From contig OX031059.1 in assembly GCA_943736015.1 (NCBI GenBank), positions 52,277,159 to 52,341,158 of the forward strand: DNA of 64,000 bases, read 5' to 3'. This stretch comes from Tridacna crocea. Lineage: Eukaryota; Mollusca; Bivalvia; Cardiida; Cardiidae. Position numbers and translations under genes: made by a program. Positions 6,715 to 33,755 of this stretch are shown here, one piece after another (the first letter of the stretch is position 1; the number at the start of each line of letters is the position of its first letter). The notes under the pieces were generated by a model, which saw nothing but the letters and a program-made list of their open reading frames with translations, had not been told where the DNA came from and searched no databases.

Positions 6715-7039
6715 ATTTTTTATGGTATTCCCTTAAAAGGCTACGTAGCCTCTTAACCCATTACCACACAATCCAGACTTTTAACACCCCTGTGAAAGAA
6801 GCCTTTTGAAAACATTGTGGGGAAAGGAGAAAATGCTGGTAACCAGCATTTTCTCCTTTTCCCACAATGTTTTCTACCCTTCCCAGAACAAATTTCATTT
6901 CTTTAGTCACATTCATTTTGTCAACTGCAAATGTGATCAATTTGGACCAGTCTAAAAATTTGTCGTTTGGTAAAGAGTTAAGGTATTTTTAAATTTAGCG
7001 CCAAAAATCAAAGGAAGCATTGTGGGAATGTAAAGTGAC
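6715..7039 (+). repeat. Left part of dispersed repeat R, the target of the 26-kb hAT
   Basis: The sequence tggtattcccttaaaaggct, a tacgtagcc palindrome, then tatttttaaattt and gcattgtgggaatgt matches, in reverse complement, 42530-42630. It is interrupted by a TTAA-MITE at 6753-6981 and then by the hAT element from 7040. R resumes at 33425. Confidence 0.85.
6753..6981 (+). repeat. TTAA-MITE, complete (229 bp), with an empty site at 42 kb
   Basis: TTAA at 6753-6756 and 6978-6981. Outside sequence reads ctacgtagcctc on the left and ggtatttttaaattt on the right. The uninterrupted R copy at about 42590-42615 (minus strand) reads gtagcctc-taca-gctatttttag, so one 4-bp target became two TTAA copies. 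This supports a TTAA-duplicating insertion, as in piggyBac-like elements. Confidence 0.95.
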
Positions 7040-7225
7040 CAGACCTGCGGTCATTGTAATCTGTAATCGTGATTACATGTAATCGATTACAAAATCTGAG
7101 TAATCGCAATGTAATCTGTAATTGAGAGTTTTCATGATTACATGTAATTGTAATGTAATCGATTACATTGAAAAAATGCCTGTAATCATGATTACATTTC
7201 AATTACTTTATGATTACAATGGGAA
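7040..7225 (+). repeat. hAT left end with subterminal repeats
   Basis: After CAGACCTGCGGTC come repeated copies of tgtaatc, tgattaca and the palindrome tgtaatcgattaca (about 7076-7092 and 7153-7168). These are likely transposase binding sites. 7226-7540 shows no gene and is taken as hAT interior. Confidence 0.85.
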
Positions 7226-7674
7226 AATATTCTTTGCCTCTTGTCAATGGTGGGTTTCTTTTATTACAGTTTGGGGGTGGGGTGCCTTCTCAAAGATTTC
7301 ATGCTAAAAGGGTGCTTTAATTGACTAATTGTTTTGTTTTAAATATAGTATATATTTCAAACAAATAAAGAACTGAGACAACTTCAAAGAGAGATTTTCA
7401 AAGGTTTGCATGGTGACCAGTCCCAATTAATGAAGAGTGGATATAATTTGTTTGATTAATTGCAATACCTATCACCTTATTAAAGAAAGTTTTCACAGTT
7501 TTGTAAGAACTCAGTCATCCCATACTATTCATACTTTCTTTTTTTTCGACTTCCGGTTTACCCGACATGGACGTGTTTTAAATCGTGGAGTGAAAAAAAG
7601 TGAAAAACAATTATTATTTTGTTTTTACATGGCTATCATATTGTCAAAATTTGTTCAAAGTGTACAGAAACAGT

Positions 7675-9021
7675 ATGGAAAGTGAATTAAATGGATTAAA
7701 TCGCTGTTTAGTAGGATTAGAGCCAGAAATGGATTTTACGCAAAACCGATATGAGCTGCTAAATGGCGGGAAAACAGACAAAGGAAAAAACAAAGAAAAA
7801 AACCCGAACGCAAACAGTAACAAATGTAATAACGGCAACAATAATGATATAAATGAGTGCACTGATCAAAGTTTTTCAAATAGTTTGTTGACTAGTGATA
7901 CCCAGATACCAAGTAAAAATGGATTAAGATCAGAGTCTAGGAAACGGGCCAGAGAAGACTCAGGCGGCATACGCCCCACTAATTTGTCTCAAGAGGAGTA
8001 TGAGAATCTCACAATGGATAATAAACTTTCTGTTTTATTTTCTCAAATGAAGAATGTTTGTGACAAGGTGGACGATTGCATTTTGTTACAGAAAAGGGTA
8101 AATATTACTGAAAACACTCTTTCCAATCATGACCATCGTCTAAAACTCCTCGAATATAAATCTATCGACCTGGAAGCCAGATCACGACGAAACAATCTTA
8201 TTTTCAGTGGTATCTCAGAGCTTAGGGATGAGAACTGTACGACACGAATAGATAGTTTTCTCAAGGAACACCTTGGATTCACTGACTGTCCTCCCATAAC
8301 CCGTGCCCATAGACTCGGCAAATACAAGAAGGGCTCAACAAGGTCAATTATTGTATGTTTTCTTGACTTCAGAGACACTCACTACGTTCTGTCGAAAGCC
8401 CACATGCTAAAGGGTAAAGAATTTAGTATAAACAAGGACTTCCCGAAGGAAATAGTAGATGCACGTCGGCGCCTTTGGCCTGAATACAAACACCTTCGCC
8501 AAATCGATCCAGGTGCAAAAACATCCATTGTATATCCCGCAAAACTTATATCTAACGGTCACACTATAGCTGATGAATTTCCCGATTGGGGCCCCATAAT
8601 GCAAGAAAGTAGAACGGTACACAACCAAAGCACGGGCCCACTCAACCAATCTACAGTTCAATCAAAACATCACGAGTCCCGTGTACATCATAATAAAAAC
8701 TCTGATAATTCAAACAGTGAGCTGATTAACCACTGCAACACAAGTCAAGAACCAGTCGCATCCTCAAGTCACAAATCCAGACGATCCCAATCCCCATCTC
8801 CACATCCGTCAAGGGCACGAAATCGAGCTCCAGTAGGACGGCGGGCAGACTTCAACAGGCAGACACCAACGTCGAATTCTAAACAGAACTTTCAGCGTCC
8901 ATGGCAATCTCAACAGACGTCCACCAAGGAGACATCCGTCAACAATACTCGCTCTGAGCCTCCAGCGCGTGCTAGTGTCAATAACGACAGTGTGTTTCGT
9001 AACTTCGGTTCCTCTAGCTAG
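7675..9021 (+). CDS. LINE ORF1 protein, L1-type (transposase_22-like), 448 aa
   Basis: This is the RNA-binding chaperone of the LINE ribonucleoprotein. The start is the ATG at 7675 (MESELNGL). Upstream the same frame is open back to a GTG at 7600 but has no ATG. An Asn/Lys/Gly-rich leader (residues about 20-90) precedes a predicted coiled coil (about 115-168) ending in LEARSRRNNLIFSGI. That motif opens the RRM-like domain (about 170-250), with AHRLGKYKKG and SIIVCFLDF. A C-terminal domain with INKDFPKEIVDARRRLWP (about 255-300) and a Ser/Arg/Asn/Gln-rich tail follow. The order coiled coil, RRM, CTD is the L1 ORF1p architecture. No frameshift is seen. It ends at TAG 9019-9021, and ORF2 follows in the same frame. 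Confidence 0.9.
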   Translation: MESELNGLNRCLVGLEPEMDFTQNRYELLNGGKTDKGKNKEKNPNANSNKCNNGNNNDINECTDQSFSNSLLTSDTQIPSKNGLRSESRKRAREDSGGIRPTNLSQEEYENLTMDNKLSVLFSQMKNVCDKVDDCILLQKRVNITENTLSNHDHRLKLLEYKSIDLEARSRRNNLIFSGISELRDENCTTRIDSFLKEHLGFTDCPPITRAHRLGKYKKGSTRSIIVCFLDFRDTHYVLSKAHMLKGKEFSINKDFPKEIVDARRRLWPEYKHLRQIDPGAKTSIVYPAKLISNGHTIADEFPDWGPIMQESRTVHNQSTGPLNQSTVQSKHHESRVHHNKNSDNSNSELINHCNTSQEPVASSSHKSRRSQSPSPHPSRARNRAPVGRRADFNRQTPTSNSKQNFQRPWQSQQTSTKETSVNNTRSEPPARASVNNDSVFRNFGSSS

Positions 9022-9446
9022 GAAGTCGGAGGGATAGAACCATCAGAGTGTCTGAAAACGAACAAAATAAACCTTGGTTGTTTGAACGTTAATGGATTAA
9101 AAAATAGATTGAACTATCCAGAATTTGTAGATTATGTAAGTACCTATGACATTTTTGGTTTAAGTGAAACTCATCTTGATTCTACCGATATTGTTGATAT
9201 CAATAACTACACTTTTATCGCCAAAAACCGCTCTGTAAATTACAAGCGTAAATCGGGGGGCATTGGGCTGTATGTGAAGGATAGCTTAGCACCATTTGTT
9301 GATGTTGTCCCTAATAGTTCCGAATACGTCCTTTGGGTGTCAATAGATAAAACATTTCTCCAACTGGAGCAGAATTTATTATTGGGTACGCTTTATGTCC
9401 CACCAGACAACTCTCGTTTCTTCACAGATCATCAGTTTACTTTATT

Positions 9447-12400
9447 CACGGGTAGGAAACTTCATATTCAGAGCCAATGGCTCCGACGAGAAAACGTTGT
9501 GTTGGTCTTCCGTTTCTGAAGATGTCGGCTGAAAAACAACCCCAAAACAGGTAGGCATGTCAGTATTTGTAATTATGTGTTCTTATGTCTTTGAAATTCA
9601 AAAAAAGGAGAATGTCATTCGATGCTCTGATCTTTCAACGTGTTTCCTGCTCTACGGAAAATTGGAACAGGTGTACGATGTTGTCTGAATCATTTGTGGC
9701 GTGGGTTGACCATTGCCAAAATAATATGTCAAGGACCTAAATTCAGTTTGTTATTGCCATTTAATTGGCAAATAAGAGAGAGTCTTGCTGTCCCAAAACC
9801 TTGAATTAATGTCTTGAAATGTTACATTCACTACTGGTCAAAAATTGAAAAGGAAAGCACAAGAACTGATAAAAATAAAGAAGGGCTCCGATTATGAGGG
9901 CCGGCTCTGACCATGTTAGTCGGCACCGATTCATGGGGGCTCCCCTTCAAAAATTTAGTTTTCTGTAAATAATTAGTAAGGAAGTAAGTTTTGTTTTTCC
10001 ATTGATATTTCTCAGTCCAAAATTTAGTTCATTTGTTTGATGGAACATGACCGCATTTATGAAAATACAAAGGACTGGTAATGTCACTTTAGAAAAATGC
10101 TGCTTAACATTAGTCTACCTAAATTTTGAAAATACTTTTGCATAGCTTTTGATTAGACCGAATAGTCCATATACAAAATTTTTAGTGCTTTTGTCGTTAG
10201 TGCAGCACACACATAAGCACAAATAATTATAAAAGAATATTTTCTTTTAGAAGTACGAGAATGATAACAACGCGTCTTTAAATGGTCTAGATGCATGAAT
10301 TTGCATTATGCAGTTTATGAATCATTATTCAGTCATCGATAAACTTGTTAATACATGATGGAACATGTGGAGACAAAATCACTATTTTGCCAAGCAATTT
10401 TAAAAGGGTCACCTGTAAAAGTCATTTCAAAATCTGTCATCACCCCTACAATCATCACCACAGCAATGATTTTGATGAATCAGAATTCTGCAAATAAATT
10501 TTTGGATAGTTCACCCAAGAACAATTTCTTGCAGAAGAGCAAATGCTCGAAAGTGACTAAAAACATATGACTCAGGGTCACCCTCGGAAAATATCTGTGA
10601 AATTATTTCAAACTCTGACCTGCCGTTTCAGAGAAGATTGTTTTAGAATTTCTTCATGACCATATAGTGTTAATAGCCCATGTAGCCATCAGAACCATGT
10701 TTCTTGATGGATCAAAATTTCTCGGACACTTTGTGAAAAGGGTCGCCCAAGGAACATTTTTGTGAAATTATTTCAAACTCTGACCAGCCATTTCAGGGAA
10801 AAAGAATTTTTAAGAATTTCTTCATTTACGTATAGTGCGAGTAGCCCTCAATCACCAGAGCAATGTTTATTGATGGATCAAAATTTTGCGAACATATTTT
10901 CAAAACGGTTATCCAAGGAACTTCATTGTGAAATTATTTTAAACTCTGATCAGCCGTTTCAGAGAAAAATAATGTTTGAGAATTTCTTCATTTCCCTATA
11001 GTGCAAGGAGCCCCCATTCACCAGAGCCATGTTTATTGAAGGATAAAATTTCGCGAACAGTTATGAAAAGGGTCATCCAAGGAACATCTCTGTGAAATTA
11101 TTTCAAAATCTGACCAGCGGTTTCAGAGAAGAAAAAATGTTTAAGATTTTTTTTTCATTTCCGTATAGTGCCAGTAAACCCTCCCGCCCCCTTTTCACCA
11201 GAGCCATGTTTATTGATGGATCAAACTTTTGCGAATAAGTTTTAAAAATGGTTTTCCAAGGAACATCTGTGTGAAATTATTTTATACTCTAACCTGCCGA
11301 TTCAGAGAAGAATAATGTTTGAGAATTTCTTCATTCAGTCCATACAGTGCAAGTAGCCACCATTCACCAGAGCCATGTTTCCTGAGGGATAAAAATTTCG
11401 CCGACAACTTTTGAAAATAGTCACTCAAGGAACATCTCTGTGAAATTATTTCCAAATTTCACCAGCGGTTTCATCAGAGAAGATTTTCAAAGAATTTCTT
11501 ATAAATTCCATTTGGTTGCCATGTCAACTAGGATTTTTAATTGAATCAAATTCTGTAAACACTTTTTAAAGAGGACCTCCCAAGGAGCATTCCAGCTAAG
11601 TTTGGTCCAGTGGTAAAGGAAGGGAACATGTTTAAACAAATAGTTGACGATGGACGACGCACAATGGACGACACATGACTGATGACGCACGACGGCCGTC
11701 GCACGACTGATGACGCACGACGGCCAAATCTTGATCTAAAAGCTCCCATTGAGCACGTTGCTAAAAATGGAATGAATGACATCTTTTTACGTTTTCTGAT
11801 TGTACATTCATATTAGCAAAATGCCAATTTGACAATATGTAAAATTGATAAAAGACTTCTCTGTGCTATTTCTTTATATAAAAGACAACGAGAAAATAAG
11901 TTTAAAATGAACTGGTTGCATCAAATTTAACTCTACGCACCTTCAGTTTGTATACCCGGAAATTAGAGAAAAAAATAAATAAACGAAATTCCTGTTCCAT
12001 CGGAGCCAACCGATATTTTGGTAACCGACCCACACAATCGGAGCCTTTCTTAAATTACGCCCGCTTTTTGTGTAGTTTTCTGTTGATTCCTGCATTGAGT
12101 GAATGGAAACGGCAAAGACAATTATCTAAGCCTGTAGAACAGGAAAATTTCTTTACCTTGTTTATTTAATGGGCAGAAAGAGCCTCTATTTATCTCCGAG
12201 ACGTATTATTTTGGCTACGATCAACCCACGCCACAAATGATTCAGACAACATCATACACCTGTTCCAACTTTCCGTAGTGCAGGAAACACGTTGAAAGAT
12301 CAGAGCATCGAATGACATTCTCCTTTTTTTGAATTTCAAAGACATTAGAACACATAATTACAAATATTGACACGCCTACCTGTTTTGGGGTTGTTTTTCA

Positions 12401-12483
12401 GCCGACATCTTCAGAAACGGAAGACCAACATAACATTTTATCGCCGGAGCCATTGGCTCTGAATATGAAGTTTCCTACCCGTG
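9447..12483. mobile_element. 3.04-kb non-autonomous element 'X' with ~300-bp inverted repeats and internal satellite
   Basis: The ends are CACGGGTAGGAAAC at 9447 and its exact inverse finishing at 12483, with inverted repeats of about 300 bp (9447-9745 and 12187-12483). The flanks carry a 5-bp TSD, TTATT, at 9442-9446 and 12484-12488. Excising the element with one TSD restores the LINE ORF2 frame, which fixes the boundaries. No transposase is encoded; the interior is a 166-bp tandem array and unique DNA. CAC termini with 5-bp TSDs are the Transib/RAG-like pattern, but superfamily assignment here is inference. Part of a second copy lies at 40645-41480. Confidence 0.88.
10560..11500 (+). repeat. 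166-bp satellite array inside element X
   Basis: The phrase gtgaaattatttcaaa recurs at about 10593, 10759, 10926, 11091, 11270 and 11440, a period of 165-179 bp. Each unit also has tttcagagaagaa, agaatttcttcatt and caccagagccatgtt. The array is followed at 11640-11770 by gacgcacgacggc repeats and aaagctcccattgagcacgt. The same family forms 49350-50512. Short open frames in it are by-products of the repeat. Confidence 0.9.
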
Positions 12484-15400
12484 TTATTGGAAAATGAAAT
12501 TTTTGAAAAATGTAGTGAAAATAAATATGTATACCTTGCTGGAGATACAAATTGTCGTGTGGGCTCCATGCGTGACTTTGTCTTTGCCGACATATACATA
12601 AACGAAACTTTTGATATTGACCAGGATCTACAGTCAGATCTCCATCGGTACACAGTCCTCGAAGACTTCTCCTTTAATCTGAATAGAAAATCGAAAGACA
12701 ACAGAACAAATACAAATGGTTTTAAACTTCTAGATATTTGTAAAAATAACAACTTATTCATATTGAATGGCAGATCTTTCAATGACAAAGATGTGGGCGA
12801 GTTCACTTTTAGAGAAAAATCCGTTTTGGACTACGTCATTGCCACTCCAGACTGTTTTCGAAATCTCTCCAATTTTGAAATTGTCGAGACTGACACACTT
12901 TTTTCTGACGGCCATAGCGTTGTATCATGGCAAATTGATATTAAAAAGCCTGTCCCCGCCCTAAATACTTCCTTTTGCACAGCTAATAGACCCAACTGGA
13001 TACCTGGTCTGGAACTAGAATTTATCAACAACATAGATAATGCAAAAGTACATTGCCTTCTTGAACAATTACATACATATCCACACTCACAGCAAACAAT
13101 ACAGCATATTACAGATGAAATCCAAAATATATTCCAATTTTCTGCAAATGTGACTTTTCCCTATGCAGGCACTCCCCAAACCCATGTCAATTCACACCCA
13201 CAAAACAAGTCATGGTTTGGTCCTCAATGTCATCAAGCAAGAGATAGGTATCATAAAGCAAAAAATAACTATGCTAAAAATAAAAATATCCAAAACAAGG
13301 TAAAACTAAAACAAACAAGTAAAGAATATAAAAGAACAATAAATCACTTTTTAAACATTGAAAAACAGAAGCAAGCAAACAGGTTAAGAACCATTAGTGA
13401 AAAGATTCCAAAAAAATATTGGAAATTTTTACAAAATTTAAAACCCAAACAGAAATGTAACGAGTGCCCAACCTTAGATGAATTTTATCACCATTTTCAA
13501 GAAATTAACAGAAATAATGTTGATGACAATAGGTTTTCCCAGGAACAAAATTATACAATCAGTATAAATGAATATCTGAACTCCAAAATTACTGAAAATG
13601 AAATCATCAAATCCATCAATAATTTGAAAAACTCTAAATCACCCAGTCCGTTAGATAATATCTTAAATGAATATATCCAGTCAACTAAAAATATTCTCCT
13701 CCCATTAAACTGTAAGCTCTTCAACTGTATTCTTGAAACAGGTTTAATTCCCCAAACATGGTTAGAAGGTATTATAATCCCAATTTTCAAGAATAAGGGT
13801 GACCCAAAATATCCATGCAACTACAGACCAATTACAATTTTAAGTTGCCTTGGTAAATTATTCACATCTGTTTTAAATAACAGACTAAATATATTCATAG
13901 AAGAAAATAACATACTGGAAGAAAATCAAGCTGGCTTCAGGAAAAATTATTCATGTAGTGACCATATCTTCACCCTTTACTCACTTTTTGAGATACTGAA
14001 AAAGAAGAAAAAGAAACTTTATGCAGCATTTATTGATTTCTCACAAGCATTCGACAAAGTTTGGAGAATTGGGCTCTGGCACAAGCTTTTATTAAATGAT
14101 ATAAATGGTAATTTTTTTAAAGTTATTACTAATATGTATGACAATATCAAATCCAGCATAAAATTAAATGGTTCATTTTCCCCCGCATTTATGTCAGAAA
14201 TTGGTGTCAGACAAGGTGAAAATTTATCACCTGTCCTATTTTCTTTGTTCCTTAATGATCTTCAATCCAATCTGATATCTAACGGTGCCATCGGTGTAGA
14301 ACTCCAAGATACTGCTGATCTGACACTGTGGCTAAAACTTTTAGTATTACTCTATGCAGATGATACTGTTATAATGTCAGATAATGCAAATGACTTTCAA
14401 AATAGCTTAAACCACTTTGGGAATTATTGCAATAGATGGCACTTAGAAGTTAACACAAGTAAAACAAAGGTAGTAGTCTTTGGTATTAGAGCAATTAACA
14501 ATCTTTCATTTAAGCTTGGTACTCAACCACTGGCAATAACAGACCATTACCATTACCTAGGCATCACCTTCTCAAATAACGGTTCTTTTCTTCGAGCCCG
14601 AAAACACATAGCTGAACAAGCTAACAAGGCCTTACATTATCTGTTCATGAAAGTTAACAACTCTGACCTGCCCTTAGACTTAGTCATCAAACTTTTTGAC
14701 CATACTGTATTACCAATCTTAACCTATGGTTCAGAAGTCTTCGGATTTGAAAATATTGAGATACTAGAAAAAGTACACTCTAACTTCCTCAGGAAAATAA
14801 CAGGCTCCAGAAAATCAACACCATTATCTTTTTTATATGGAGAACTTGGACGCTATCCAATTAAAATAGTTATCATGTCCCGTATGGTATCTTTCTGGAA
14901 CAGGTTATTAATTGGTAAAAGTGAAAAAATCTCCCTTAAGATATATAAGTATATGTTAGCAAGTCCACAAGATAATTTCAAATGGCCTAACAAAATTAAA
15001 GAAATTTTAATTACAGTAGGAAGACCCGATCTGTGGGAAAATCAGTTTAATATCAACCAAGGTAATCTACATAAAACAATAAAACAAACACTGATTGATC
15101 AATTTAAACAAAATTGGCATGAACAATTATCACTATCCAACAAAGGCAGACTCTTCTTGAATTTTAAAGAAAATCATGCATTTGAAGAGTACCTCAGAAT
15201 TCTAAACAGAAACGAATACTTACCCCTTCTCAGGTTTAGAACTGCAAACCATCATCTGCCCATAGAAACTGGCCGTTATGATGGCACTATTTTGGAAGAC
15301 AGAACTTGCAATCTCTGTAATTCTGGACAGGTTGGCTCAGAGAAACACTATTCATTTGACTGCATCTTTTTCCACAATGCAAGGGAAAATTATCTTCAAA

Positions 15401-15778
15401 ACCTGCAAAGTCATGAACAGAGTATTAAAGCATTATTTCAAACCAAGTCAAAATATAAACTTAAACGAATAAGCTCTTTTGTAAAGTTGATCATGAAGGA
15501 ATTTCAATGAGAAGTCTAAATACAGCCCAATTGCCTCCTGAAATAATAAATACAGACATAATTATTATACACAAATTTTTCTTTTTCTTCTTCTCCCATG
15601 CATGCATATATACAAGTATATATATATACAACATGGAATCTTATATGAGGGCTGAATGGACAATGATCATGCTGCACACCTTTGCAGACTGATCCATACC
15701 CACTTAGCACTCTGACAATAAACATAATATTTGAGTAAAAAGAATCACTGGTTACCTTTCAGTTCATAACCCCATTTT

Positions 15779-16010
15779 TTAAACTCTTTCCAAAACAACC
15801 CCTGGTTTTTACAACCATGAGATAAAACCTTTTTGAGGGCATTGTGGGAGAGGGAGAAAATGCTGGTAACCGGCATTTTCTCTCTTTTTCCACAATGTTT
15901 TCTACCCCACTGGAAACAAATTTCAGTTCTTGAGTTACACTTATTTTGTTGTCTGCAAATGCTCTCAATTTGCGCCAATTTAAAAAATTTGATGTTTGGT
16001 AAAGGTTTAA
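15779..16010 (+). repeat. TTAA-MITE, complete
   Basis: TTAA at 15779-15782 and 16007-16010. It has a central hairpin around ggtaacc with one arm mutated (accggcattttctctcttt), and right end tttggtaaaggtttaa. Sequence 16011-16740 shows no gene. Confidence 0.85.
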
Positions 16011-16741
16011 CAAGCCTGCAAATAGACAACCTTGAAATAATTGCTAGAGGGAAAAACATTGGCAACAAGGTTTTTTTTTTCCCCATTCTCAGCAATGTCT
16101 GCCACAGACAAATGTATGGTTGATATACATATGTATCTAATATATCTAGACATTTAAAACATTGTTTGTGAGATTGTACATGTTGATTTTTCCCACCATC
16201 ATTATTATTAATGTACATACACTACCACTGATTTACTTTGCACTAGACCTTAAATTGGCAGTGCAAATGTGCAACTTGATCAGATCTACACAACCCAGGT
16301 TAAGGGTTCCCTGTATGCCTTCAAGTGCCTAGCACAAAGAGTCTAACTTTTGCCATTGCTTCATTCTTATTTTATTCATCATGTACATTCTCATTTGAAA
16401 ATACTTATGTGTCATAATTTACATGTGCATTCTGAATTTATCATCCAGATACTTACTTGTAAATATTTTTGTTTTTTGTTTTTCATGTATTTATTTACCT
16501 GTAAATATTTACGTTTTTTTTTTTTTGTATTGTTCATGTAAACCCGCCTCTATAAATATTAATCTATCTCCCCTTTGCTGTCAAACATGTCTAACTGAGT
16601 CAAGTGTACAACTGTTGTTAACTGTCTTCTGCAAGTCAGAGTATATTGAGAAGCTAATCCTTGCCTCCACAAGAAAATTGTAAATTAGCTAAGAGTTATC
16701 CATAATACCTTGTCTCATTTTTAATCCAGAATTATAATTCT

Positions 16742-16866
16742 TGAGTACATTTTTGGTGGATATACAAAGCCTCTGGAAACTTATTGGCAAAAGAGAAAAA
16801 TGATGATTATTCATTATTTTTTCCTTCTCCCACAATGTTTCCCATGTCTCACTACCCCACTGTCAG
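16742..16866 (+). repeat. Degenerate TTAA-MITE
   Basis: Only aagcctctggaaac, a weak hairpin and tctcccacaatgtttcc are left. Sequence 16867-17134 has scattered ttggacctgtct fragments but no ordered copy. Confidence 0.35.
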
Positions 16867-17857
16867 GCCTTAATTCTATGGCCAGATTTGGTCAAGCAAT
16901 CAGAAGTTATTTTGGACCTGTCTAAAACCATTTCAGCCATGCTATATTCTTTATCTGTAAATAACTCTCAATCAGGGGCAGAGTAAAAAAAAATATAGAT
17001 AACATTTCAGTCAAAATATATCTGTTACAAATGGAAACTTGAATCTGGGCCAAACTAAATCATTTTAGCCCCACTAAAATTGTTATATTCAGCTGATTTC
17101 AACTTGGACCTGTCTATAATAATATTAGAAATACTGTATGCATATTTGTTATTATGTAAATGCTTTCAATTTGGGCTAGACTAAAATTTTGGGTGTCAGG
17201 AGAAATCGGCCCCTGGAGAAATCGGCCCCGGGAGAAATCGGCCTCAAAACGCTTGGGGCCGATTTCTCCGGAGAAATCGACCACTGGGGACGATTTCTCT
17301 GGAGAAATCGGTCCCGACAGAAATTTTGGAGAAATCGTCCCCAATGCCAAATTTTATATATGTAGATATTGCTTTTTCAGAAAATGTAATTTCCATTTAG
17401 GTTTTATTTAACACATTCACTGTGTAAGCCATGTCTTGTTTCAAGTTGTATTTGATTACAGCTTCTTTGTTGTTTTTATGGCAATTTTCATAGTTTTTCA
17501 CACTGATTGTTCTTTTTTTCACACCTTCACACAGGTAGCCTACACCTGAAAGATTGTTGAATGTTTGTGTTCGTTTGAAATTGATATTGAACGAATTATG
17601 AATTATAAATGCTCACGATGCATATATGTGTATTTGTTATATCATTAAAACCTTTTTTTTTTTGCACCTTTCTCTCTCGATCTCTCTCCCTTTTTGCATG
17701 TTCGGCATAGGTAATTGTTATCAATTTCATATTGTTGTTCTTCGTCGGATCAGATCTTACCCCCTCTCTCTCTCTCTCTCTCTCTCTGTTAATGAATATT
17801 GTTCATGTTACAGAATGGTTTTTAGAACCATCAGTTGTCTTTCTTCAACCTTTTCAC

Positions 17858-17940
17858 ATTTACTCCTTTTCCCACAATGTTTTCAAAAGCCCTTTCCTAC
17901 AAGTTTTTTAAAACACGGGATTGTGCGGTAATGGGTTAAG
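17858..17940 (-). repeat. TTAA-MITE end fragment inside the foldback centre
   Basis: Reads ctccttttcccacaatgttt then gattgtgcggtaatgggttaa, the right half of a reverse copy. Confidence 0.7.
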
Positions 17941-18089
17941 TTAATCGATCATTGGTTCGATCAACGAAAGAGTTCTCCAACGAGAGTATGAATCATTGTA
18001 ACGCTGTATATAAAAGAGTGATATAACTGATAATTAGGCCATTGTGGACTCTATTTTATTTCATCGAAAAAAAAAAAGGATGCATTTAA

Positions 18090-18284
18090 AAAAAACCTGT
18101 AAGAGAGGGCTTTTAATAACATAGTGGGAAAAGGAGTAAATGTCAGCACTTTTGCACTTTCTCCTTTTTCCACAATTTTTCCCACCCAAAAACAAAAACG
18201 ATTTTTCCAGTTATATTTAATTTGTTGTCTGCAATTCCTTGAATTTTGACCCGTCTAAATTTTTGTCGTTTGGTAAAGAGCTAA
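18090..18284 (+). repeat. TTAA-MITE, forward, diverged, inside the foldback centre
   Basis: Contains gtgggaaaaggagtaaatg, ctttctcctttttccaca, tttgttgtctgcaa and tttgtcgtttggtaaagagc. The hairpin loop is rearranged. Confidence 0.7.
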
Positions 18285-22801: not shown

Positions 22802-23533
22802 TACTTATGAACAAGTGGCTTCTTTAAAAAAGAAGCCAGGAGAGGTCGACATCATTATTTTCAGATAGTTTTTATGCTTTTAGGTTAAATATATCTAGGT
22901 ACATGTAAAGAAACAAGCAAGGCAATAAACGGGTAGTTGAAATCTGTTCAGTTGTAAATACACATTCATCAAAGTGGATGGCAAAAACAGGATTCCGTAT
23001 TCATCCGTCCTTGTAATTTATGTAAGTCACACGACCTTCTTCCCGCGTTTTAAGGTCACGTAATTTTTTCCGCTGTGTTCGTTTCTATTTTTAACGAAAT
23101 TCTTTTTTCTTTTTCTTCTTTTTGTTAAGATTTAAGATTGTAATACAAAATTAAAATTGTTGGAAAGGGAATATGCAATTAAATCCTTACAATTTTGTTG
23201 AAATTCGTGATATAGAAACAAACCACGTCTATTTCCTATTTCAGTTTTTAGACTTCGATTTCTTTATAAAATCATGACGAAACAGACTGTATATCGGAAC
23301 AATTCCCCTACAAAGATTGGATTTAGACAGCAATTTCTGAGGCAGTCTGCCTTTTAAACTCAACACTGTTGGAGAGGTCTGATGACCTCTCCAATAATAA
23401 AAACAACTTACCTGCTGTTTTCAAGTAGGGTTTACCCGACCTGTATTTCCCACGTGAGGTCACGTGACCAGCAGGTGCGCGTAAGCGGCTCTATCCCTCT
23501 TAATCGTTCCTCCATATCATCTCCAGCTTACAC
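22802..23533. other. Gene-free interior of the composite hAT
   Basis: No coding sequence is supported. A short hairpin, ggagaggtctgatgacctctcc, lies at 23372-23393. Its role is unknown. Confidence 0.5.
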
Positions 23534-24285
23534 CACACTGGAGAGACATTACGAACTTGTTCCTGGTCAACGTTACTGTCCCTGTCAATTTTACGTACCC
23601 GTTCGAGTAAAAAACATGGCTGCGCCCACAAGATTACACAAGGTAAGCACAAAAACATAACTTTTTTAACATGTTATTGAATAGATATGCAGTTGCAGGT
23701 TGTCGCACGGAATGTCTGGGATGTCAGTGCACGTTAATCTCTAGTTCTTTTGGTGGTTAATCGTTTGTTGAAGACGTTTAATCCAACAAAGTTTCGCCGG
23801 GGACTACGATTTCTGAAAAAAACACTACTTGGAGTCCCCAAAAACCCTTGTAAAACATATACACTCAATATTCTGAAGTGTGTGCCGTGTCAGATGACCA
23901 ATACAGTGATTATCCTCAGCACTATAAACCGATAAAAAATCAAATTGCAGTTATTCAGGGATATTTTGCCATTTTTAAATTACAACATAAGATGCTCCTA
24001 CGGTCAATACAACGATTCAGCTTCTGAGCTGAAAATACGGTAAGCGTATGGGTTTGTGTTACAGTGAACAATTTTGTTATTAAGTTGGTCAAGATTCTAT
24101 ATTAATCATCGTAGTCACAGTCGTAGTGTAGTAATAAATAAATACTTGAATGGAAGTACAATTCTACAACACATTGAAGTCTTCTTTCTATCAATAGGCC
24201 TAATGTTACTAGGCATGCTCAGGCGATCTCGGGTTCTCTGTTTCTATCCCCAATTTTATTAAGCTGGCAGAATCAGACACCCATC

Positions 24286-24287
24286 GT

Positions 24288-24326
<39 letters not shown>
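24286..24326 (+). repeat. (GA)n microsatellite
   Basis: About 19 uninterrupted GA units followed by a short G run. Confidence 0.95.
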
Positions 24327-25139
24327 GTATCATTAGGTAGACTGGTCCTTGAACATACAGAAAATTGACCTAAAGCAAAAAGTCTTGGTCCACTTCCGCC
24401 TGCACGGAATGCACAAGCTGACCTGGGCAAATTCTTTCCGCAGATCTATGCATTAAGCCCCCTTTCCACAGAGTATCGCTGATCAATATTTAAATATTAA
24501 ATATTAATATATATTTAGATATTCAGATATTAATAGTTAATTTTAGATGTGCCGCTTACAAGGCATACGAATGGTTGGTCGTTGATGATCATTATTATCA
24601 AATCATATTCACAAAAACGAGTCTCTTGATGACGATATCGAAGATGGTATTTATAATAGTTATGGATCTTCTGCAAGATAGTTATGATAGATATCCTTTG
24701 CATGATACTGTCTGTCATCAAGCTCTTCATCTATATCACAGGAATTTGACATCCTATAACCAAAATAAATGATCAAATATGAAAAAAAATATCTCCTCTA
24801 TATAATGTAAACAGAAGGACTGCAACGCCTCGATTGTCTCATTCAAAATCCTAGAAATGCGCTCAACTGTCTCATAGGAATACGGAAGTTGAGCCTATAT
24901 TTTTTGCAAATCTTTCTAAAACTAAAACAAAAGAAAAGTGAAGTTATGTATTCTCGTATTTTGTGAATATTATTATTGATTGTATGCATTGGAATCTTAT
25001 TTTAACATCGGTATTCGGGAATGCTACTCGATAATACATTGATAATATGCGACTTTATATCCGAGATATTGTGATTGAATCAACGGGACAGAGCCATAAA
25101 TTAAACTGCTCATTGCAGGAAGTCCTTGTATCTATCACT

Positions 25140-25320
25140 TAGTGGTGGACAGATGATCGACTATAGTCGAAAGTCATTTGGTTTTGGCTTCCGATTCCGA
25201 TAATCGATTGAGAAAACCCGGAATCGATTGTAGTCGATTCTTGAACTCGCTTGGTGCCTAAACTTGAATTCTTGGTTTTGTGACTATCATTAATCACAAT
25301 CTTCGATTGAACAGTAGATA
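25140..25320. repeat. Cluster of TCGATT/AATCGA motifs
   Basis: gatcgactatagtcgaaagt, ataatcgattgag, gaatcgattgtagtcgattc and cttcgattga occur within 180 bp. The pattern resembles transposon subterminal binding-site clusters, but no end or TSD was found. The surrounding 24330-26200 shows no gene. Confidence 0.4.
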
Positions 25321-26204
25321 ACAAACATCAAAATTGGCCGGAAAAATGAGAAAGAAATTTTTTTCCATGCATTATTTGACAAAACTTGACAACTCGGCAC
25401 GCTTCTCATTTGATCCCTTAGTCCGGGTTTAGAGACTTGGAAATTTGAAATGATCTGTCTTTGACAGTGGAAAATATCTGACGTATGAAATCATCGTCCA
25501 GAGCTTTATAAAATCTAGCTTGCGTACATCCGGCAGAAAATTAGGCTAAACACGATCAGTATAAAATGCGAAGGACACGCGGATGATAATGAGGCTGTCG
25601 AGTCATTTATGACAGAGTAACAAAGGTGTTCTTCTTCTTATCTAGTGTAAAGTGACAGATTTTTTAATTTACTTGCTATTTAAACTGACTGGATGATGTC
25701 AAATCATGTAGCAATACCTCTCCAAAAATTAATTGTCACGAAAAAATAAATCGCCAAAAAAGCGTGAAAACCCATGACAATAAAATGAGCAGCTTGGCCT
25801 CGTCCGATCAGGGATACTTCAAACTGTCTTCTCATCAATAATAATGGATTTATACAGTGAATTTATACCAATCTCAGAATAAAGCAATAAGTGAAAGCTA
25901 AATTCCGTTCATTAGTGAAATAAATGTTGTTTTATGAAATGAAAATATAGATCTATAGCAGACAGGTTTGGGGGGGGGGGGGTTGAAGTCGTTGTCTGCA
26001 AATGCTTTAAATATGTCTGATTGTTTATTTGTATATGGAAAAATGAACAGTATAGATTATTCATGTGCTAAAACAATAAAACAGAATAAAGTGCTTTACT
26101 TGAAATCTTTATAACGTCTCATCTGAAGATTTTTGAAAATGTCCCATTGGTTTTCAAAGACAGGAGCCATTGTCTCATTGAAAAAAATTCTTTACCGATC
26201 ACTG

Positions 26205-26665
26205 TTAGCCTAGCGATAGAAAACACAAAACTGTACCTGCGACATTCGGCGATTCCTCAGTAGACACCTTTTAACCGGAAATATCCGTCATGTATTACTT
26301 TTTTTTTTTACAATTTCTATCCATCGAGGAGGACATTCGCTGACGTCACAGGATTCCAAGGAAGGCCCAAGAAGTGTATTTTAGGATTATGTATTAGAGT
26401 CAAATATCTTTTCTTTAAAAGATAATACGGTCAAATACTTTTGTTAGTTACTTGGATTAAGTATCATGTGATGTCCATAAATATATCTTAAAAACGAAAA
26501 AAAAAAAATAGTAATACGTAATCCAAAAATACGTTTCCTGGCTCTTCCCGTGACGTCAGCGAATGGCCTCCTCGATGAATAGAAATTGTCTCCGGTTAAA
26601 AGGTGTCTACTGAGGAATTGCTGAATGTCGCAGGTACATTTTTGTGTTGTCTATCGCTAGGCTAA
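26205..26665. repeat. 461-bp foldback repeat
   Basis: The left arm begins TTAGCCTAGCGATAG and the right arm ends CTATCGCTAGGCTAA. Both contain gtacctgcgacatt, tcctcagtagacacctttta and ggcc/gagga..gctgacgtca in inverse order. The spacer is about 190 bp. No TSD is clear. Confidence 0.8.
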
Positions 26666-27539
26666 AGGAAATTATGATCAATGTTTGTTTCGTGGGTGAT
26701 TTTGGGTGGGAAAGGCTGTCTTGTGCTGTCGCTTGCAATCGAGACGTTGCATTCCTTGTGTTTATGTTATATAGGGGAGATTTTTTTCCATATTTTATCA
26801 TTTATTTTGGTTATAGAATGTCAAATTCCCTTGTCTATATCATGGCATTTCATTTCAAAAGCATCAAAAGGATAATAAACCTGACGGAAAGAAAACCTGA
26901 AAGATAGACAAGTAGACAGTTATGCATATTGATTAAAAACAGGGAAAAAAATCATTAAACTCGTACACAATCACATTATGATATCGTTCTCTGTTTCAAT
27001 TCAGGAACTGGATCGTTTTATTGTGTTCTGGAGCGTGGTGCGTTGCCTGCAAAAATTTAGAGAAAAGTGCTTTTTAATGGATGTCGTATAGTTTTTTGTT
27101 TTTAACTGTGGTGAATAAAGCATATGTGATTCACTTGACACAACACAAACTTCATATTATTGTGTTTGTATGTTTAAAAAAGCTTTTTGCTGACTTCCGG
27201 GTGTTGATTATTCAGAAATCGTTGTCGCTGACGGAAGTTTGTTGGATTAAACGTCTTTAACAAATAACAAACCACCAAAGGAACAATACAGAAATATGCA
27301 CTAACATCCCAGAAATTCCGTGCGACAACCATCTACAGCACATCTACTCATCTGGTTGTTATAGAAGAATGTTTTTCTGCTTACCTTGTGTAATCTTGTG
27401 GGCGCAGCCATGTTTTTTACTCGAACGGGTACGTAAAATTGACAGGGACAGTAACGTTGACCAGGAACAAGTTCGTAAGGTCTCTCCAGTGTGTTACACG
27501 TGTTATTCTTTTCGGAAGTCGTCTTTTATATTTTCATGT

Positions 27540-27632
27540 AGTACCATTATTATGTATATTGCCCTTATTGTATACCATGTATACCTGGGTGTAATTAAAA
27601 GTATGTTGTTGTTGTTGTTGTTGTTGTATAAA
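27540..27632 (+). repeat. Possible LINE 3' end with (GTT)n tail
   Basis: ataccatgtatacctgggtg leads into about ten GTT units at 27603-27632. A similar layout, an aataaa-like end followed by (GTT)n, occurs at 61640-61732. LINEs such as CR1 can end in microsatellites, so this may be a retrotransposon tail. Confidence 0.4.
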
Positions 27633-27737
27633 ATATCACCATATTATTTGGCTGAGGTTCTGTTCATTATTTTACTGATAGAAACTCTGGTGGAATTAAA
27701 GTGAATCTTAGTTCTGATTAAGTGAAAATCAGTAGAT

Positions 27738-30700
27738 ATGTCTGCTAAGGTTTTTGAACATTTTGACATTCCATTTAGTGACACACTAACTGGATCTGAC
27801 TCTGTTAAAGCTAAGTGTAAATACTGTGCAAGTACCATATCAGGATCTATGAAGACAACCTCAAACTTTGTCACCCATTTGAAGGTAAGTCGCACATATT
27901 TATTATTTAACCATTTACCAAATGACAACATTTTAGATTAGTCCAAATTCAAAGCATTTGCAAACAAAATAAATGTAACCTAATATTAAATTTGTTTTGG
28001 GAAGGGTTAAAAAACATTATGGGAAAAGGAGAAAATGCTGGTTACCAGCATTTTCTCTTTTACACATAATGTTTTCAAAAGTGCTCTTTCTTTAGGTCAT
28101 AAAAAGTTGGGATTGTGCGGTAAAGGCTTAACCCTCTTTCAAACAGCTCATTGTTTTCATGACCCTAGGGTCACTAATTGTTTTGGAAAATACTAAATGG
28201 GAAAAGGCAGGCTGTTTCTGATTTTTCCAAACAGTAACAAATTTGATATTGTAAGGGCCACTGACTATTTAACCCTTTTTCACACAATCTGGATTTTTGG
28301 GGACCTAACACTTTTTCCTTGTCCCATAATGTTTCCTACTCTTCCCATTTTGTAAGTTTTAATTTTTTATTCTTATTTAAATTGTCAATTGCAAATGCTT
28401 TCAGTTTGGACTAGTCAAAAACTTTGTCACTTGTCACAGAGTTAATAACTAAATGTGGCTTTGCTTTTGTCTTTCATGCTGCAGTTATCTGAATTATTAG
28501 TCTGGAAAGCATAAAGAATATCTCCACTCTTTCAGAATCTAAATCAATCAAAGGCAGTTAAAGGTAAAAAGATGCAAATGTCTTTCAGTTTGCCTGAGTA
28601 ATTAACCCTTTCCCAAACAATCCCTGGTTTTTACGGGTCAGGAATAGAAGCCTTTTGATAACACTGTGGGAAAAGGAGAAAATGCTGGTAACCAGCATTT
28701 TCTCCTTTTCCCACAATGTTTTCTACCCTATCATATAGAAAAATCATCTTTTTAGTAACTGTTAATTTGTCATCTGCAAATTGCTTTCAATTTGGTGTGG
28801 TCCAAAATTTGCCGTTTGGGAAAGGGTTAATTCTTGAAACATTATGTGAAAAAAGAAAGTGCTAGTTATCAGTCATTTTTCCTTTTCCCACAATGGTTTC
28901 TAATACATGCATCCTCTTCTTTACCCATTATCAACCCATTACAACCCAATTCTGATTTTAACAAATAGCTTGAGAAAACAGTGGGAAAAGAAGGTTAGAG
29001 AGCAATTAGCTTATGAAATATTGTGATAAAAGGAGGAAAAGCTGGTCATCAGAAATACAGCCAATTTCTTTATCAACTTTTTTTTCAGCAAAATTGTCTG
29101 GATAATAAATTTTGGAAACATTACAAGAGGAAAAAAGTGCTAGTTTATTAGTTACAGTATGAAGACCTTAATTCTGAAATCTGCTTAACCCATTACCACA
29201 CAATCCCTACTTTTGACGCCCCTGGGAAAAAAGCCTTTTGAAAACACAGTGGGAAAAGGAGAAAATGCTGGTAACCAGCATTTTCTCCTTTTCCCACAGT
29301 GTTTTCTACCCTTTCCTAGAACAGATTTCAATTTTTCAGTCACCTTTATTTTGTTGTCTGCAAATGCTTTCAATTTGAACCAGTCTAAAATTTTGTCATG
29401 TGGTAAAGAGTTAAGTGCAATTATTTAAATCTCTATCAAACAATTCCAACTTTTAACGACCCTAAAGAAGAAAGCTATGGAAAAAACTGTTGGAAAAGGA
29501 AAAAATGCCAGTAACCATCATTTTCTCCTTCTCCTACAGTGTTTTCCACTCTTTCAAAGAGAGAAATCATCATTTCAGCAAATTTTAATTTATTGTCTGT
29601 AAATGCTTTCAATTTGGTAACATAAAAAAATTGTCATTTGGTAAAGGGAATATTATAATGAGGTCTTAAAAATCAGTGATGTGGTCAACAGTGATAAAGG
29701 GTGAAAAAGAGGTGTCAAACTGAGATAACAGTATATAGCCCCAAGCTTTCCATGCCCCCTTTGCTTTTATCAAAGAAAGGCTATTACCAGTAAGATATAG
29801 GACGGTGTGAAATATGAACATAAGTTGTATGACAGTCTAAAAAACTGAAAATGTTCCAGTGAAATTTAGGAAACCTTTGGCTACAAAAAAATTGTAGCTG
29901 GGTTAACTTTGGGTTAACTCTTTACCAGACAACAAAATTTTACACCTGTACAAGTAGGGTGAAAAGCATACAGGAAAAGGGAGAAATGTCTTTTCTTCTT
30001 TTATCTGTTTTTGATAATCAGAATATTCTCTTTTTCACTCAGCGTTTTCAAATGCTTTCACTCAACATTTAATTTGTCATCTGCAAATGCCTTCAATTTG
30101 ATTGTGTCCAAAATTTTGTCATTTGGGAAAGGGTAAAATCACATTTGACAGACCAAGTTTGATAAGAATTATAACCCTAATTTTCCAAATCTGAATTCAT
30201 TTCCAGAGGAAACACAGAGATGCTTATTTGTCTCTTCGTCAAAGTCCTACTGTTAGTCCTCCTGTATCAACATACCAACGTCCAATGACCGAGTATATTA
30301 AACCTACATCTGTGTACTCCTCTACTGACCACAGACAGATTGAATTAACTGACGCCCTAGTCCAGTATATCGCAAGTGATCTTGTACCTTTGTCTGTTGT
30401 TGAGAGCCCATTCTTTAGAAAACTAGTCAATAAACTTGATCCAAGATACCAGCTTCCAAGCCGTAAACATCTTTCAACAAACCTGCTTCAAGCTAAATCA
30501 GAAACAGTATTGGATGCTGTTAAGGAGAGTCTACAATCTGCACAGAGTGTCTGCCTTACTATCGACCTTTGGTCCAACCGCCAGATGAAAGGTTTTCTCG
30601 GTATAACCGGACACTTTATTGAAGACTGGGCCATGAAAACAGTTATGATCACTTGTAAGAGATTCAAGGGACGACATACGGCAGACAACATCAGATATGA

Positions 30701-31901
30701 ATATGAAGAAGCAATTTCCAAGTTCGAGATTTCCGACAAGATACAGACTATTGTCACAGACAACGCCTCGAACATGATGAAGGCATTTGATTTTTACCTT
30801 CCTGGCTTCACACCAGAAAATGAAGGTGATGATGAATCTGACACAGAAGAGCATGACATCAATGAGAACTCGGAGAAATGTGATCAACTCGAAGGATATT
30901 TTCCAACCCACAGTCGCTGCTATGCCCATACCCTACAACTTGTTGTGAAGGATGGACTAAATGATGCTAGTCAGCATTTGAAGAATGTTATTGCTAAAGC
31001 TTCAAACATAGTTAACCATGTAAGAAAGTCGATTCACGCCTCTGAACTTCTAGATGGTGAAAAACGCCTTCAAACAGCTACAGCTACAAGGTGGAACTCT
31101 CAACTTACAATGATACGATCCGTCCTGAACATCCCTGATGGAAAAATGAAAAAAATTGATGTCCAACAGCTGACTGCCTATGAGAGAAAAATTCTAGCTG
31201 AACTCTGCTCTATCCTTTCCCCTTTTGAACGTGCTACAATGATGGTGCAGCAATCCAATAACACATCCGCTAGTCTGACCATTCCAGTTACTTTGGGCCT
31301 TAAGCATCAGCTAAAGCAAATTTCCTCTACATACAACAACACCATGGTCTCAAGATTGAGAAATTCAATAGACAACAGACTATCTCATTATGAAACTGAT
31401 GAAAGCTACTTGATGGCAGCAATTCTTGATGCACGTTTCAAATTAAGATGGTGCAAAAAGGAGACAGAAGGTCAGCTTACTAAAGACCTGATGCACAAAG
31501 CAAATGAAATCTATATGCCATCCAACAAACAGGAAGACATTACCTCACCTCCTTTAAAAGTAAAGAAACTAAAAGAAGATTTCTTCAGTTTCATGGGAAT
31601 GTCTACAACTAGTTCTCCATTTAAATCTTCAGGAGCAGAGCTTGAAATTCAAGAGTACTTAAAACAGCCCTGTATTGATATGACCAGTGACCCACTACAA
31701 TACTGGAAAGCACAACAGACAAACTTCCCTCATCTAGCTACTTTAGCCTTGAAGTACCTAGCCATCCCAGCCAGTTCTGCTCCAGTTGAAAGACTGTTTA
31801 GCATTGCTGGGAAAATCTCCCGCCCTGAGAGGTGTTCAATGAGTGATACAACCTTTGAAAAATTAATGATGATTAAGTGCAATTCTCGTCTTGAAATATA
31901 A
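27738..31901 (+). CDS. hAT transposase with BED zinc finger (ZBED-like), two exons
   Basis: Exon 1 is 27738-27884 (49 codons) with donor GAAG|GTAAGT. Exon 2 is 30207-31901 after acceptor ttccag. Together they encode 613 aa with no internal stop. The BED finger is split by the intron: CKYC and H of THLK lie in exon 1, the last His (RKH) in exon 2. The RNase-H-like core follows, with D about 168 (CLTIDLWSN), D about 233 (IVTDNASNM), the CYAHTLQLVV motif and ATRWNSQ. The C-terminal dimerisation block has ASSAPVERLFSIAG, whose Glu (about 576) completes the triad. It is the transposase of the surrounding 26-kb element. The 2.3-kb intron is filled with TTAA-MITEs, the first only 22 bp past the donor. 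The open frame and spared exons suggest recent activity, but the element is now probably too swollen to move well. Confidence 0.92.
27907..28131 (-). repeat. TTAA-MITE, complete, in the hAT intron
   Basis: TTAA at 27907-27910 and 28128-28131. Good left hairpin arm; the right arm is mutated to ttctcttttacacataatg. Confidence 0.9.
28269..28445 (+). repeat. TTAA-MITE with hairpin deletion
   Basis: TTAA at 28269-28272 and 28442-28445. The copy jumps from ggggacctaacac to ttttccttgtcccataatg, so most of the left arm is lost (177 bp in all). Confidence 0.85.
28602..28830 (+). repeat. TTAA-MITE, complete, near-perfect hairpin
   Basis: TTAA at 28602-28605 and 28827-28830. The arms gtgggaaaaggagaaaatgc and gcattttctccttttcccac pair exactly around tggtaacca. 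Fragments of two further copies follow at 28840-28905 and 28930-29000. Confidence 0.93.
29185..29414 (+). repeat. TTAA-MITE, complete, used here as reference copy
   Basis: TTAA at 29185-29188 and 29411-29414 (230 bp). Layout: cccattaccacacaatccct, tgaaaaca, a ~60-nt central hairpin around ggtaacc, tttctaccctttcc, tttcagtcacc, ttgttgtctgcaaatgc, tttcaatttgaaccagtc, and aaaattttgtc..ggtaaagag. Terminal inverse matches are short (accca..ttacc / ggtaaagag). Confidence 0.95.
29425..29650 (+). repeat. TTAA-MITE, diverged, 10 bp after the previous copy
   Basis: TTAA at 29425-29428. The right end tttggtaaagggaatatt has lost its TTAA. The hairpin arms carry several unpaired changes. Confidence 0.8.
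29914..30137. repeat. Chimeric TTAA-MITE with two right-type ends
   Basis: It starts ttaactctttaccagacaac then aaaattttac, which is the inverse of the family's right end. It also finishes with a right end (ccttcaatttg..ccaaaattttgtcatttggg). The normal left end is absent. Confidence 0.7.
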
Positions 31902-32278: not shown

Positions 32279-32610
32279 TTTTAATGTTAATAGTTCTTGT
32301 CTTATATCAAGTTATTGCTGTGATTAAGAGAGAAATATGGCTGGGTTAAGAACAGTTGTATTCATAGAATGTTAATATGTTTTTGTGTTTGACTATCACT
32401 CTATCAGAGAGCTCTTGTGATCCAAGTGATATTGAGAGCATCAGTACTTAATAGACAAATACTTTGAAATTGGTAAAATCATAATTATGTTATTTGGTAA
32501 AGAATTAATCTCATATTCTCAAATATTTTATAATATATTGTTGTGAAAATAAAAGAAACATCCTAAAAGAGTCTTTATTATCAGTCTGGATACTTTTCAT
32601 GCATTTATTA

Positions 32611-32842
32611 TTAATTATTCCATTATCACACAATCCCTACTTTTGATGACCCTGAGAGAGACGCCTTTAGAAAACATTGTGGGAAAAGCAGAAAATGCTG
32701 GTAAACAGCATTTCTCCTTTTCCCACAATGTTTTCTACCCTTCACAAAACAAATTTCAAATTTTCAGTTACTTTTATTATGTCGTCTGCAAATGCTTTCG
32801 ATTTGAACAAGCCTAAAATATTGTCGTTTGGTAGAGAGTTAA
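32611..32842 (+). repeat. TTAA-MITE, complete
   Basis: TTAA at 32611-32614 and 32839-32842. The hairpin is near-perfect, with the centre ggtaaac in place of ggtaacc. Confidence 0.9.
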
Positions 32843-32866
32843 TTATATTTACAGAAGAGTGATGTT

Positions 32867-33059
32867 TAACCCTTTACTAAGCAATCCTGAGTTATAACAT
32901 CCTTGAGAATTGATCGGTTGAATGAATCATGTTTTAGGCCACTTTCAACAATATTTCAGTCATATCATGGCAACAGCTCACACTACTCATGTATTTCCTG
33001 GGTTTCACCAGAACATCCTTGAGGAAGAGGCTTTTTGAAAACACTATGGGAAAAGGTAA
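32867..33059 (+). repeat. TTAA-MITE left half interrupted by a SINE 3' end
   Basis: Starts ttaaccctttactaagcaat and resumes at about 33013 with ccttgaggaagaggcttttt, gaaaacactatgggaaaagg. In between, 32935-33010 (cactttcaacaatatttcag, tcatatcatgg) resembles the bivalve SINE 3' end seen at 48358-48420. Confidence 0.55.
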
Positions 33060-33237
33060 CAGGTTCAAGGCCATAACACTCTAGATTCGAACGACTACCC
33101 CGTACAGAACCCCTCTTTTTCAATGGAAGCAAATGATGCTACTGGTAATAAATATTTAGTAATTCTGAAGATTTTGCTCTCAAGTTAAAAAATTAAAAGG
33201 CTGCTAAAAGAATAGTTCTCAACCTTTTATAAGGACT

Positions 33238-33424
33238 GTAGTGTGTCATGTTAATGTAATCACATGTAATCATAATGTAATCATGATTACAATGCAAAAG
33301 TAATTGTAATTGTAATCAATTACATTGAAAATTTGTGTAATCATAATGTAATCAGTAATCCTAAAACTTGGGAGTAATTGTAATTGTAATCGATTACATT
33401 GGTATGTAATCGACCCCAGGTCTG
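33238..33424 (+). repeat. hAT right end with subterminal repeats
   Basis: Tandem tgtaatcatgattaca and ttgtaatcgattaca motifs lead to tgtaatcgaccccaggtctg, ending at 33424. The AAAGTGAC TSD follows at 33425-33432. Confidence 0.88.
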
Positions 33425-33755
33425 AAAGTGACTGGCACATGACTAATGACGCTTAAATTCCAGACATAACAAACATGTTATTTTCCATAAACTTCTTCTT
33501 CAGTCGCTGTGTTTGAGGCATCATTTGTGTATTTCCGGTAAGTGAGTGAGCAAGTTGCTCATCTAAAAATAGACCATGGTTCCCGTCGGTGTTGACCTGG
33601 GCCGTATAAAATCTCTAATTTCTCTTGCTGTCGGATGGTTTTTGACTACTGGGGTTTTATGAATGAAAATTAAAAGGTACTGGGAGTATCAGGATGAATT
33701 TTAATATTTTTGTATAAATTTCGTCCAAAAATCTGAAGGGCCACCTTTAAGTGAA
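33425..33755 (+). repeat. Right part of dispersed repeat R
   Basis: Continues the match to the reverse complement of 42215-42530: cataacaaacatgttatttt, gactactggggttttatgaa, tctgaagggccacctttaag. With 6715-7039 it makes one R copy. The stretch 33756-35690 holds no gene; SINE 3'-end fragments lie at 35212-35260 and 35285-35320 and a (TA)n at about 35548-35562. Confidence 0.85.

Follow-up and report, generated by a model that had tools for sequence, protein, structure and literature searches.

In genomes rich in repeats, nested transposons are commonplace. Swollen hAT elements are already known from maize, where ten Ds1 elements of 0.8-24 kb are described, six of them with long terminal repeat (LTR) retrotransposons (PMC3260210), and in bivalves hAT is listed among the richest DNA-transposon superfamilies (PMC10294476). 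Here we describe a hAT element of 26,385 bp (7040-33424) in a 64-kb stretch of the Tridacna crocea genome (assembly GCA_943736015.1, contig OX031059.1, positions 52,277,159 to 52,341,158), hereafter the window, whose coordinates are used throughout and which was compared with one assembly of 1.05 Gb in 31 contigs. Like maize Ac/Ds, as far as that report describes it, the family has 8-bp duplications, short inverted ends, subterminal repeats, internally deleted derivatives and swollen copies; unlike the swollen Ds described there, which are non-autonomous and hold mostly LTR retrotransposons (PMC3260210), the copy in the window keeps an open transposase, and its inserts are a long interspersed nuclear element (LINE) and DNA elements. 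Its length resolves into 6,301 bp of hAT, 7,972 bp of LINE and 12,112 bp of further inserts, and as judged from the DNA itself the locus almost certainly represents one hAT insertion in a repeat, R, that was later swollen by a LINE carrying five DNA elements. The single insertion, the assignment of the parts to their elements, the empty sites and the intact coding sequence are observed directly.

The outermost bases of the element, CAGACCTGCGGTC at 7040-7052, are the inverse of CAGACCTGGGGTC at 33412-33424 with 12 of 13 bases matching, and directly outside both ends stands AAAGTGAC, identical in 8/8 positions, as the left (7032-7039) and right (33425-33432) copies of the target duplication. 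At one mismatch or fewer the 13-mer end occurs in these two places only in the whole 64-kb window; 0.06 matches are expected in a shuffled window and none of 100 shuffles held two, by which an origin of the ends by chance was ruled out. The motif TGTAATCGATTACA is found exactly at 7078, 7154 and 33385 and at no other place in the window, and the only 250-bp bins of the 64 kb that hold at least six TAATC/GATTA motifs are the two end bins (13 and 11). Motif bins and the genome search delimit the left end (7040-7248, +), composed of the terminal inverted repeat and a subterminal TAATC-rich array, while the right end (33207-33424, +), with the array preceding the inverted repeat, is delimited by motif bins and by the compact copies considered below. 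Inside them lie the hAT 5' region (7249-7544, +), for which no second genome copy was found and which is absent from the compact copies, and a 3' region common to the compact copies (32304-32617, +) and defined by comparison with them. The 8-bp duplication and the short inverted ends with subterminal repeats are features of the hAT superfamily. Elements of its Ac branch prefer targets of the form nTnnnnAn. Among 20 target sites (the window and 19 relatives, with one side only read for relatives not fetched), A occupies position 7 in 15/20 (p = 9e-5) and T occupies position 2 in 10/20 (p = 0.07).

The flanks of the element, once joined, align over the junction with the reverse complement of unbroken R at 42215-42630, so that this copy (42213-42630, +) represents the empty site. 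The left piece of R (6720-7039, -, comprising 6720-6753 and 6981-7039 and aligned with R 42630-42538) ends in the left target duplication and is broken at about 6754-6980 by a 227-bp TTAA-type miniature inverted-repeat transposable element (MITE), beyond which the match to R continues over 33/34 bases; the right piece (33433-33755, -) follows the right duplication and was likewise recognized by alignment to R. In a survey covering the window and 59 other fetched loci, eight other copies of R match both flanks (one in the window, four in L032 and one each in L041, L028 and L026), and in seven of the eight the halves abut to the base at the hAT insertion point, while two further partial copies (L028, L026) stop short of the junction. 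Five of the seven contiguous copies were aligned in full, with identities of 79/91 to 84/92 on the left and 245/319 to 259/322 on the right; within 8 columns of the junction four of these alignments have no gap and one has a single-base gap. Since the left piece is short (among 2,942 random 60-base pieces, 1 reached or exceeded its score), the empty-site case rests on contiguity in several copies. The four copies of L032 (G000:C13:135000-144900) stand in a row within about 2 kb (5073-7141), and the 8 extra bases found in one of them (6005-5618) sit at the place matching the hAT insertion point. The sequence-only reading of this DNA had proposed a single hAT with these limits, later swollen, with TAATC-rich repeats at both ends and with flanks formed by two pieces of an R whose unbroken copy aligns across the junction; all of this is borne out.

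Relatives that share the ends connect them with the gene between them. When 40 of 61 candidates were scored in a genome search with the left end (7040-7248), 24 other near-full matches of 94-97% were obtained, and 12 places were fetched with 9.9 kb read at each: nine from these 24, one of 90%, one of 88% and a split one. Both ends and an 8/8 duplication are present in nine of the 12, whose sizes are 2,181-3,835 bp. The sequence-only reading had suggested a search for compact copies with the same ends and had named as refuting the outcome that each end belongs to a separate, smaller element; the relatives carry both ends together. The compact copy L021 corresponds to window 7040-7248, intron pieces between 28170 and 30060, 32304-32617 and 33207-33424; each segment of this type is present in eight or nine of the nine compact copies, and the window is collinear with L021 from the intron through the right end. 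No transposase fragments were found in the 12 fetched stretches, both exons being missing from the compact copies. Gene and ends belong to one element because compact copies sharing the ends hold pieces of the transposase intron. Of two MITEs in the intron of the window, that at about 28602-28830 is missing in 9/9 compact copies and that at about 29184-29415 in 8/9, L023 having about 230 extra bases there.

The transposase gene consists of exon 1 (27738-27884, +), with the start codon and most of a BED zinc finger, an intron bordered by GTAAGT...TTCCAG (27885-30206, +) and exon 2 (30207-31901, +), with the RNase-H-like core, the hAT dimerisation domain and the stop codon; the exons were assigned by splice borders and by profile matches. 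The predicted spliced protein of 613 amino acids is open over its two exons and matches the Pfam profiles zf-BED (PF02892, 1.3e-9) and hAT dimerisation (PF05699, 1.2e-18). Exon 2 alone matches the transposase of Hermes, a distant housefly hAT with a solved structure, at 4e-22 over two parts of the catalytic core and the dimerisation domain, and the residues corresponding to the catalytic D, D, E triad and to the conserved TRW motif of Hermes are present. Compared at the protein level, the best named relatives are bivalve hAT transposases of the "zinc finger BED domain-containing protein 4-like" type, which have the BED finger and the hAT core in common with it; near-full-length ones, at 51-54%, come from Mytilus trossulus, Saccostrea cucullata and Argopecten irradians, and an unnamed partial relative (P0003) reaches 90% along 59% of the query length. 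No relative turned up when IMG/VR viral contigs were scanned with exon 2.

In the genome search with exon 2, 77 of 109 candidates, the best ones only, were scored and gave 64 matches. No second intact transposase of the family was seen among these scored candidates in the 1.05-Gb genome, and it is to this search that the term "only intact copy" refers. The two places that rank next (C13, C6) hold fragments, truncated or interrupted, of 71-82% amino-acid identity, with no convincing hAT ends within the 9.9 kb read at each. The remaining matches are more distant, at 24-62% within the aligned pieces, and long open frames occur in some of them. Two distant relatives, at C2:72748998-72749890 and C1:45848301-45849220 (G000), with protein pieces of 44% and 52%, adjoin left-end-like TAATC-rich sequence (72% and 80%), which suggests that the end type may be shared across this transposase clade.

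The stretch 7545-27628 (+), 20,084 bp or 76% of the 26,385 bp, is a single LINE insertion with five nested DNA elements, and the estimate of about three quarters for later insertions, made from the letters alone, was accurate. Window 7240-7544 and the junction of hAT and LINE were each found once in the genome, and from 7545 onward three other places match. An unbroken copy on another chromosome, at C2:3130380-3138339, measures 7,960 bp against 7,972 bp for the LINE in the window, as obtained by subtracting 12,112 bp of inserts from 20,084 bp. Identity between the two is 98.9% over 7545-9446 and 98.6% over 12484-17120, and the C2 copy continues over the site of element G with 97.4% at 19090-20167, 97.9% at 23393-23533 and 100% at 27494-27624; both finish in the same (TTG)n, in which the 3' limit is uncertain by a few bases. 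The LINE comprises ORF1 (open reading frame 1), an endonuclease, a reverse transcriptase, a 3' part of about 3 kb and (TTG)n. Among its Pfam profiles RVT_1 reaches 1.2e-35, and on the piece before element X Exo_endo_phos gives 9e-5 (22.8 bits, just below the Pfam cut-off of 24.5). Endonuclease with reverse transcriptase, sharp ends relative to the C2 copy and the (TTG)n tail place it in the APE-type non-LTR class. In a three-way comparison 8 of 1,588 sites (0.5%) are private to the window LINE, and copies of its 3' part are found at 99% (two on C16) and at 97-98% (C15, two on C14, C2 and C3); since private changes are few and near-identical copies exist, the LINE is young. Two copies of the 3' part (window 15510-27628), in which two MITE-like segments are shared with the C2 copy, lie about 10 kb apart at G000:C14:47271157 and 47281221.

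For each of the five elements nested in the LINE the C2 copy provides an uninterrupted site. Element X (9447-12483, +; 3,037 bp) lies in ORF2 and has 296-bp inverted ends (94%), a 5-bp TTATT duplication and an empty site at L059; the ORF2 frame runs on across it, although one of the two other frames, not that of the flanking long ORFs, is also open over those 40 codons, and a more diverged LINE copy (L058, L060; 96%) is also without X. Element G (17192-19089; 1,898 bp) has inverted ends, the 8-bp duplication AAATTTTG, a MITE relative at 18096-18284 and an empty site at L061. The same locus gives the empty sites of element P (20168-22800, -; 2,633 bp), which is pogo/Tigger-like with DDE_1 and HTH_psq matches and a TA duplication, and of element Q (22812-23395, about 584 bp), unclassified and with no clear duplication. 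P contains an open frame (20563-22329, -) for a pogo/Tigger-like transposase of 588 amino acids with a Psq-type DNA-binding domain; being missing from the C2 LINE copy, P is therefore recent. Element E (23534-27493; 3,960 bp) has inverted ends of about 359 bp (83%), a 6-bp TTACAC duplication and an empty site at L062. The simplest reading is that all five inserts postdate the split of the window LINE from the C2 copy, while the MITE-like segments 15782-16010 and 19121-19336 are also in the C2 copy and are therefore part of the LINE. Divergence between the inverted ends of X, G and E was dropped as a clock, since such ends are inherited and may already differ when the element inserts. X encloses a satellite array with a 166-bp period (10574-11473, +). 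The nesting depth is R > hAT > LINE > X: three of the insertions in the four-deep order proposed from the letters (hAT, LINE and X) stand, and the fourth, the satellite in X, is without a demonstrated junction. A second array of the X-satellite family, also of 166-bp period, occurs outside X (49411-50460, the array proper at about 49411-50260) with a (GTCT)n run nearby; by description alone both resemble the Cg170/HindIII arrays carried on Helentron elements of oysters, likewise short tandem arrays of 166-bp period dispersed by mobile elements (PMC7492417).

Rates of change give a relative time scale to these events. The count excludes columns where more than one row departs from the other compact copies or where fewer than five of them have a base, and also copies whose coverage of a segment is 80% or lower; against the agreed bases of the compact copies the window then differs at 10/421 sites in the ends and at 129/1,654 in the interior (Fisher p = 1.7e-5), end changes being about threefold fewer. 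The hAT ends have been kept, and the 2.4% is an upper bound on neutral change after the landing of the hAT. In interior segments the distance of the compact copies from their consensus is 1.8-2.5%. Under neutrality the transposase frame would survive with P of about 0.18-0.46 at about 0.5% divergence and of 0.0003-0.02 at 2.4%, and strong selection on the transposase was set aside once about 0.5% had been obtained from the LINE for the subsequent period.

In the history that we favor, a hAT of about 6.3 kb inserted once in the old repeat R, duplicating AAAGTGAC; a young LINE later entered at 7545, in the interval that separates the left end of the hAT from its transposase gene; the DNA elements X, G, P, Q and E afterwards inserted into the LINE, and TTAA-type MITEs into the intron and 3' region of the hAT, the outcome being a 26,385-bp hAT with both ends and an open two-exon transposase. 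Several observations weigh against this history or parts of it. Three of the 12 fetched left ends are without a matching duplication within 9.9 kb: L026 and L030 look truncated, and at L031 both ends are present at a distance of 5,797 bp, but their flanks fail to match. One of the eight R copies (L032, 6005-5618) carries its 8 extra bases immediately to the right of the junction. At 7545/27628 no target duplication was detected next to the LINE, the one flank match being 9/10 at 7520-7529 and 27639-27648, 15 bases before the start and about 11 after the end. Finally, the junctions do not fix the order in which hAT and LINE landed. Ac/Ds macrotransposons are reported to move up to 100 kb (PMC3260210), and by analogy the ends at 7040 and 33424 might come from two separate smaller hAT copies acting as a composite; this is scarcely credible and was rejected, as the window holds neither inner ends within one mismatch of the 13-mer nor a further TAATC-rich bin, the compact copies bear the same left and the same right end as one unit, and the collinearity with L021 runs from the intron to the right end.

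A less remote but still improbable alternative, which exploits the very silence of the junctions on order, is that the hAT already contained the LINE, perhaps with nested inserts, at its last jump, which would mean that a large element entered R in a single step. The few private changes at the hAT ends (10/421) agree with it, and size alone need not stop mobility if known systems are a guide, since Tol2, another hAT, moves 66 kb (PMC2768751) and large Ds elements still transpose (PMC3260210). Against it, window 7240-7544 and the hAT-LINE junction were found only once in the genome, though cut-and-paste leaves no second copy; the 8/1,588 private changes of the LINE stand against the 2.4% bound of the hAT ends, and therefore the LINE entering after the hAT is the simpler order. 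We infer that the LINE arrived after the hAT landed in R and not before the last jump. It is quite unlikely, more so than a jump in the swollen state, that the intact transposase has been kept by selection as a domesticated host gene within a relic transposon: the gene is the sole intact copy found for the family, with broken fragments of 71-82% as the next best, yet the ends are intact too, with about threefold fewer changes than the interior, as expected under recent selection for transposition, and survival of the frame by neutrality is unsurprising at the post-LINE divergence of about 0.5% (P about 0.18-0.46).

Returning to a single hAT swollen in place, its transposase expression has likely been reduced or lost through the 20-kb separation of the 5' region from the gene, since about 110 bp separate the end of the LINE from the start codon downstream of it and the first 505 bp of the hAT have been moved 20 kb away; an untranslated upstream exon spliced across the LINE could rescue expression. 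Tentatively, the family may be losing its last source: the one transposase found intact in the 1.05-Gb genome lies in an element whose 5' region was severed by the LINE at most about 0.5% divergence ago, and the compact derivatives that it could have moved, about 2% from their consensus, may now be without a working source. Conversely, the 26.4-kb element may still be expressed and mobile as a whole.

Elsewhere in the window, the TTAA-type MITE family, with members of about 230 bp and a palindromic core, is extremely dense and occurs in many places between 1112 and 48060; 13 queries against 265 kb of fetched, partly overlapping DNA and the window gave 40 to 109 full-length relatives per query. 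Another LINE (55266-60705, -) has long frames in which zinc-knuckle-like, endonuclease-like and reverse transcriptase/RNase H-like parts were recognized in translations read by eye.

The process seen at this locus is a known one; less usual here are the intact transposase held by the swollen copy and the unbroken counterpart that each step has in the same assembly. The locus presents a clean, well-resolved and dateable order of nested insertions. A hAT enlarged about fourfold, from 6 to 26 kb, illustrates how a short element can pass for a 26-kb one, and in annotation the stretch 15.5-27.6 kb could be mistaken for unrelated debris, although it is the remainder of one LINE together with four of the five inserts. 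With one intact gene found, a recent LINE between that gene and its 5' region and nine verified non-autonomous relatives, the locus provides a concrete case on which to test how a DNA-transposon family comes to an end.

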